From assembly GCA_902776565.1 (NCBI GenBank), contig CACYQN010000014.1, positions 1 to 64,000 of the forward strand: 64,000 nt of DNA, read 5' to 3'. The position numbers were made by a program, and so were the translations under genes. Positions 14,944 to 63,973 of this stretch are shown here, piece by piece (the stretch's first letter is position 1; each line of letters starts with the position of its first letter). The stretch is from an uncultured Bacteroidia bacterium (lineage in GTDB: Bacteria > Bacteroidota > Bacteroidia > Bacteroidales > ML635J-15). The notes under the pieces are model-generated. The model worked only from the letters and a program-made list of their open reading frames with translations. It ran no database searches and was not told the origin of the DNA.

Positions 14944-14986
14944 GATGATTGATAATTGTCAATTAGCAATGGATAATGGATAATTT

Positions 14987-15014
14987 GTGGCGACATGCTG
15001 TGCCATGTCGTCAC
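14987..15014. repeat. REP-like palindrome
   Basis: GTGGCGACATG (14987-14997) pairs with CATGTCGTCAC (15004-15014) around a 6-base loop, with one mismatch in 11 pairs. It resembles the palindrome at 63644-63673 inside the transposase gene (shared TGTrGCGrC outer arm). It lies 43 bases after the giant gene and has no T-run, so it is not the terminator. Confidence 0.65.
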
Positions 15015-15031
15015 AAAATGATGAAAAATCG

Positions 15032-63412: not shown

Positions 63413-63973
63413 TTAGATTTTTTCGTCAGAATCGCATTCCCATTGAGCGATATTGTTTTCGATGTATTCGGCAATGCTGTTCATTTCGGCAGAATCGCGG
63501 ATAATGTGGTCGTAGAATCGGGATTGCCAAGAAAAAGGAATGGCATTTTTGCGAGCAAATGTTGTTGTTGATATTTTTATTCCACGAATTACAGAGGCAA
63601 GATTTTTTGATTGGGGTGCAAATTTATTTATTGGTTCGTCATTTGTAGCGGCGCAATGCATTGCGTCGCTACAGATTTCCGTATTATATTGATTTTCGCC
63701 AATTATTATTATAAAATGCACATGGTTAGGCATTATTACGAACAATGGTATTTCTACATTCATATCTGCTCGAATTTCTGGTGTTTTGGTAATTTGTTCT
63801 TGTAAACATTTTCCGACTTCAGACAAATTCATTACACCATCGGTTATTTCGCCAAAATAATGTTCCTTATCCTTAGTACAAATTGTTATAAAATACATCC
63901 CGCCATTATAATTATGCCATAATGCGCGAGTTGTTATTCTGCGATATTGATTCCAATGATTTCCGTCAGGCAT
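63413..63973 (-). CDS. REP-associated tyrosine transposase (RAYT, Y1/HUH family)
   Basis: This 186-aa Y1 transposase belongs to the group that processes REP palindromes as single strands. It begins with the block YNGGMYFITICTKDKEHYFGEI, has the HUH motif MPNHVHFIIII (about residues 82-92) and the presumed catalytic Tyr in SRFYDHIIRD (about residue 155). Between them the gene contains a 30-base palindrome (63644-63673), translated as CSDAMHCAAT. That is where other family members have a short variable loop; it matches the REP-like type found near 14987. The frame stays open, so the protein may still be active. It is the last full gene before the window edge. Confidence 0.9.
   Translation of the reverse strand: MPDGNHWNQYRRITTRALWHNYNGGMYFITICTKDKEHYFGEITDGVMNLSEVGKCLQEQITKTPEIRADMNVEIPLFVIMPNHVHFIIIIGENQYNTEICSDAMHCAATNDEPINKFAPQSKNLASVIRGIKISTTTFARKNAIPFSWQSRFYDHIIRDSAEMNSIAEYIENNIAQWECDSDEKI
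63644..63673. repeat. REP-like palindrome inside the transposase gene
   Basis: TGTAGCGGCGCAATG pairs with CATTGCGTCGCTACA over 15 bases with one mismatch and no loop. The 30 bases are divisible by three and keep the transposase frame open. Confidence 0.85.

Follow-up and report, generated by a model that had tools for sequence, protein, structure and literature searches.

A group 4 RAYT gene that probably carries its own cognate REP palindrome in frame

Does a palindrome inside the coding frame of a transposase gene mark a chance insertion, or does it belong to the enzyme that the gene encodes? This question was raised by a RAYT gene close to one end of the window, as we call the whole stretch of 64,000 nucleotides that was analyzed. 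It touches on two open questions of the field, namely which REP is the target of a given RAYT and how REPs persist when they are not obviously mobile. The features discussed are listed in Table 1.

Table 1. Positions of the RAYT gene, its motifs, and the two palindromes in the window
Feature	Position	Strand	Basis
RAYT (TnpA-REP, group 4 / subclass 2.4) gene, 186 aa	63413..63973	(-)	Pfam, NCBIfam, and PDB matches
HUH motif MPNHVH, residues 81-86	63716..63733	(-)	No variation at M81, P82, H84, or H86 among 69 relatives
Variable loop, residues 92-124, from HUH strand to next helix	63602..63700	(-)	AlphaFold2
In-frame double-foot REP palindrome, 30 bp, residues 101-110, feet GTAG/CTAC	63644..63673	(.)	Sequence, genomic copies, hairpin z
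WQ motif, residues 149-150	63524..63529	(-)	Of 69 relatives, all have W149 and nearly all Q150
Catalytic tyrosine Y170 in YIENN	63464..63466	(-)	Invariant in 69 relatives
Second double-foot palindrome (GTGG...TCAC), different core	14986..15015	(.)	Single copy within three mismatches in 31 genomes

The window gene is a RAYT (TnpA-REP). Its protein matched the Y1_Tnp domain of Pfam (E=1.5e-5), and the sole NCBIfam match was REP_Tyr_transpos (NF047646, E=6e-16), with a score of 58.6 bits that is under the equivalog cut-off of 80, a threshold for naming and not a biological feature, in a model that suits other RAYT groups better. The structure 4er8, E. coli TnpA-REP with a REP hairpin, was both the only PDB profile match and the best PDB fold match. 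The invariant H84, H86, and Y170 give the HUH motif and the one downstream tyrosine of a Y1 HUH fold. NHVH, WQ, and YIENN fit the motifs of subclass 2.4 (NH[IFV]H, WQ, and YIxNNP), but the tyrosine motif has I instead of P. Subclass 2.4 (Quentin et al. 2018, PMC6006769) is the same as RAYT group 4 (Bertels et al. 2017, as cited in PMC6006769). The AlphaFold2 model had a mean pLDDT of 86.6 and a confident core, with a strand at residues 84-91 and a helix at residues 125-142, and the pLDDT was low in the loop between them (55 over residues 101-110 and 62 over residues 111-120). Since the model is weak over residues 101-120, the palindrome was taken to code for a flexible loop running from the HUH strand to the next helix. 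The same genome (G000) also has broken RAYT copies (contig C27, 5862-6297, loci L005 and L110; contig C18, 40769, locus L007), which are frameshifted or contain stops, one being a C-terminal fragment only.

The palindrome in the window gene exceeds chance. An earlier note on this DNA had described it as 30 bases long and translated in frame between the HUH motif and the catalytic tyrosine, and this description held at 63644-63673, residues 101-110. The coding strand reads TGTAGCGACGCAATGCATTGCGCCGCTACA, which is translated, from TGT AGC through GCT ACA, as CSDAMHCAAT. The pairing is near-perfect, and its only mismatch reads A.C on the coding strand and G.T on the opposite one. The palindrome scored 12, and three triplet shuffles of the whole window gave no palindrome scoring at least 10. 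The hairpin z was -4.5 on the plus strand and -3.5 on the coding strand, and 0 of 200 dinucleotide shuffles were equally stable. A genome-wide count, proposed in the same note, was conducted with pattern searches and selected stretches and revealed a repeated family, with 17 places within three mismatches in this genome (the gene copy included) and none for the reversed control. The core pattern was found at 20 places (19 besides the gene copy; control 0), so that a GTAG-tagged REP family is associated with this RAYT in its genome. The note had also pointed to a similar palindrome at 14987-15014. The feet are indeed alike, as both palindromes have the GT[AG]G...C[CT]AC double-foot architecture, but the core is of a different type and the coordinates are corrected to 14986-15015. 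A search of this genome and 30 relatives gave no further copy of it within three mismatches. Since its core differs and it has no other copy, this palindrome lies outside the family of the window-gene palindrome and was rejected as a copy of it.

Quentin et al. (2018, PMC6006769) already described REPs lying in frame within RAYT genes of subclass 2.4 / group 4, and the window gene joins this known kind. Like the subclass, it has the three motifs, a variable insertion between HuH and Y, and within that interval an in-frame double-foot REP, GTAG...CTAC. According to the published account, REPs also flank the gene, which is common and not required, and in-frame insertions were judged to be of little impact (PMC6006769). 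Our results differ on both points. Of the 128 RAYT loci that have a palindrome inside the gene, 109, including the window gene, had no further one of the same core within 450 bp, while at the remaining 19 the flanking core was that of the internal palindrome. Also, the conservation of the foot and the congruence with the RAYT tree described below point to maintenance. We did not find the evidence for maintenance given here (foot conservation, tree congruence, the copy-number link, and the usual lack of cognate flanks) in the literature consulted.

Three other systems are related in part. E. coli TnpA-REP and its REPtron (group 2, 4ER8) share the fold, the HUH-Tyr chemistry, and a GTAG-tagged hairpin substrate, but group 2 REPs are imperfect, bulged hairpins, whereas the window palindrome is near-perfect, double-footed, and located inside the ORF. 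Rickettsia palindromic elements and other intragenic REPs (PMC3733652) are in-frame, translated palindromes as well. Those elements are found in many unrelated genes and in varied places, whereas here the host is the REP-associated transposase gene and the interval is nearly constant. TnpA of IS200/IS605 (IS608, ISDra2) has the same Y1 HUH fold and recognizes single-stranded DNA hairpins with guide tetranucleotides. IS200/IS605 elements are insertion sequences with defined boundaries and a hairpin close to each end, whereas no such ends were seen at the window gene and its hairpin is internal.

The spread of the arrangement was examined in relatives. A family search found RAYTs in 24 of 31 genomes, and at the majority of the loci the HUH-Tyr interval contained a palindrome. 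These loci, together with those of named genomes and others from across the phylum, formed a set of 179 RAYTs, in which palindromes were scored by complementarity alone, ignoring the foot sequence. A palindrome with a score of at least 9 was present between HUH and Tyr in 129 of the 179 RAYTs compared to 0.56% of 1790 codon shuffles. Palindromes scoring at least 10 over the gene body numbered 131 between HUH and Tyr, seven before, and one after. The carrier records came from Bacteroidota, Cyanobacteria, Chloroflexi, Spirochaetes, and candidate phyla. The three other intact RAYTs of the window's own genome also have a palindrome in this part of the gene, each with its own sequence: TGTAGAATCGCACCATGGTGCGATTCTACG (C7, 47102-47653, type B), TGTACCGATGCGATTAATCGCATCGCCACA (C5), and TCCGTAGGGGATGGTTTCAAACCGTCCCCTACGGA (C8). 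Two in-frame RAYTs (L051 and L109) have no palindrome beside close relatives that have one, and in a single clade (L036, L037, L038, L040, and L071) the genes, although apparently intact, share the decayed palindrome GTAGGGTCGCGGCGCGCCACGACACCAC. The ORF can do without the palindrome, given that it is missing from some intact RAYTs (L051 and L109) and decayed in others (L037 and L040). The clade with the decayed palindrome provides a natural test of an enzyme without a good internal REP. In the loops of L053, L068, L072, and L076, half-palindrome units seem to lie in tandem beside the palindrome, lengthening the loop.

The earlier note had suggested that the transposase gene was itself hit by the palindrome, and that homologues without the insert would support this. 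Such homologues do exist and their loops tend to be shorter, with a median HUH-Tyr interval of 228 nt without a palindrome vs 276 nt with one, which is a tendency. The hit on the window gene was not upheld, since in its five closest homologues (76-98% identical) the position of a palindrome is identical or almost so. A recent hit in this gene alone is ruled out, as the orthologues share both the palindrome and its position. Paralogues across the RAYT family have other palindromes in the same loop. The position shared by close homologues and the use of the same loop by paralogues indicate that the palindrome of the window gene was inherited in position. On a tree of RAYT cores from which the loop was excluded, the 16 palindrome types required 17 changes, the minimum possible being 15. 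This suggests vertical inheritance, with the palindrome type being passed on along with the RAYT.

The changes within the palindromes suggest that they are maintained as working DNA and are not random insertion scars. In pairwise comparisons, which like the genomes are not independent, 514 pairs with 60-97% core protein identity had 2-9% of foot positions changed and 17-46% of stem positions, and 84 same-offset pairs showed a change of 0.3% in the foot, 13% in the stem, 15% in the 21 bases upstream, which lead toward the conserved HUH strand, and 39% in the 21 bases downstream. The GTAG foot was found in two reading frames (60 and 48 cases) and in no case in the frame that makes TAG a stop. 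Since two frames are used, and never the TAG-stop frame, the peptide is not what is kept, and a conserved peptide function was ruled out by the two frames and the differing residues. In close pairs (90-100% identity), two-arm changes that keep pairing numbered 12 vs 43 one-arm changes, and in distant pairs (60-70% identity) the numbers were 438 vs 145. Such a gradient is expected from mutation followed by compensation, and template-switch correction could also produce it. One-mismatch intermediates were present in the type B clade.

Next to inheritance and conservation stands a link with the rest of the genome. Palindrome copies outside RAYT genes were more numerous where a RAYT of the same type was present for type B (p=0.003) and type E (p=0.026). 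Type A, which is that of the window palindrome, and type C showed the same trend, not significant singly, and the combined permutation test of copy number against presence of the matching RAYT in 13 REP-rich genomes gave p=5e-5. These tests are supportive and not final because the genomes are related and G010 is only 74% complete. Type C palindromes peak in G010 (34 places), where no type C RAYT was found; given the completeness of 74%, that RAYT is perhaps absent from the assembly or lost. Type I palindromes occur in eight genomes, at 1-9 places each, and nowhere else. In six of the eight, a RAYT has the type I palindrome, while the RAYT of G013 has another type and that of G015 has none. In G012 the intragenic copy is the only one of type I, and in G005 it is accompanied by one with three mismatches. 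The internal palindromes of both genomes are still paired and have intact feet. A cognate relation of a RAYT to its intragenic palindrome, in line with what had been proposed for this locus, is supported by the tree congruence, the copy-number link, and the covariation of the arms.

We therefore consider it probable, at roughly two chances in three, that the window gene is a group 4 / subclass 2.4 RAYT carrying its own cognate double-foot REP, in frame, in a flexible loop. By analogy with groups 2 and 3, the palindrome would fold, when the region is single-stranded, into a hairpin bound by the group 4 RAYT, and by the same extension GTAG would guide cleavage. Hairpin recognition and the GTAG cleavage guide are experimental findings for group 2 and 3 enzymes (PMC8266576), and no biochemistry of group 4 enzymes was found in the literature consulted. 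With its double foot the palindrome is nearly the same on the two strands, so that either could serve as substrate. The gene would then always bear a template of its own substrate, one that travels with the enzyme and could seed dispersed copies. Through the internal palindrome, the enzyme may also target its own gene or repress it. Candidate roles of the internal copy are the seeding of new copies, self-binding, and autoregulation; a literature search returned nothing relevant on TnpA-REP autoregulation. Self-recognition, the other suggestion of the earlier note, is possible. A broader and more tentative reading, to which we give somewhat less than an even chance, is that the intragenic palindrome of group 4 is a selected cis-element across several phyla, which replaces the flanking REPs of other REPtrons as a heritable master copy and possibly as a self-targeting brake. 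If the substrate does reside in the ORF, each enzyme's cognate REP could be read straight from its gene and many enzyme-REP pairs would become testable. The tight linkage would also explain how enzyme and substrate stay together in inheritance and horizontal transfer.

Another possible explanation, near the published view, is that REPs insert genome-wide and that in-frame landings in a tolerant loop survive, leaving an internal copy with no function. The loop is flexible and variable, homologues with shorter loops and no palindrome exist, and REPs in frame within unrelated genes are known (PMC3733652), all of which speak in favor of such landings. However, the palindrome type tracks the RAYT tree and the foot is much more constant than the adjacent bases. 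The internal copies of G012 and G005, one alone of its type and the other with its only counterpart three mismatches off, have also kept their pairing and feet. We regard a passive origin as unlikely for these reasons.

Control at the RNA level, in which an mRNA hairpin limits RAYT translation or the stability of the message, appears more doubtful still. A hairpin is predicted for the coding-strand message (with DNA parameters), but mismatches on the coding strand were G.T in 17 cases and A.C in 13, so wobble pairs are not visibly favored in the message, and the one mismatch of the window gene is the A.C kind there. An RNA hairpin also leaves the constant GTAG foot without a reason. A specific mRNA hairpin was thus unsupported, since there was no G.U strand bias. 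Finally, template switching in replication could restore the symmetry of the palindrome with selection absent. Fold-back copying of this kind could be the source of symmetric arm extensions seen in some loop elements, and close relatives often show the one-mismatch intermediates that it would leave. Neutral upkeep does not explain the constancy of GTAG amid inner-stem change or the link with genomic copies, and we find it very improbable.

The arm extensions were observed in 13 of 101 loop elements, where both arms reach symmetrically past the GTAG feet, over 4 to 15 bp of copy-specific sequence. Five of the 13 came from one clade. Examples of extended arms are the loop of L049, L127 and L129 around position 1500, and the flanks of L178 and L231. 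They point either to a REP that entered a hairpin already in place or to arm growth via fold-back copying. Also, AT-rich heptad-like tracts (ATTGATA, ATTGACA, ATGGATA) adjoin five of the 17 palindrome copies (L017, L022, L023, L025, and L026), and one such tract, at window 14954-14986, adjoins the second palindrome. Heptad-like units occur just 12 times across the whole window, and the adjoining tracts may represent a second element linked to these REPs.
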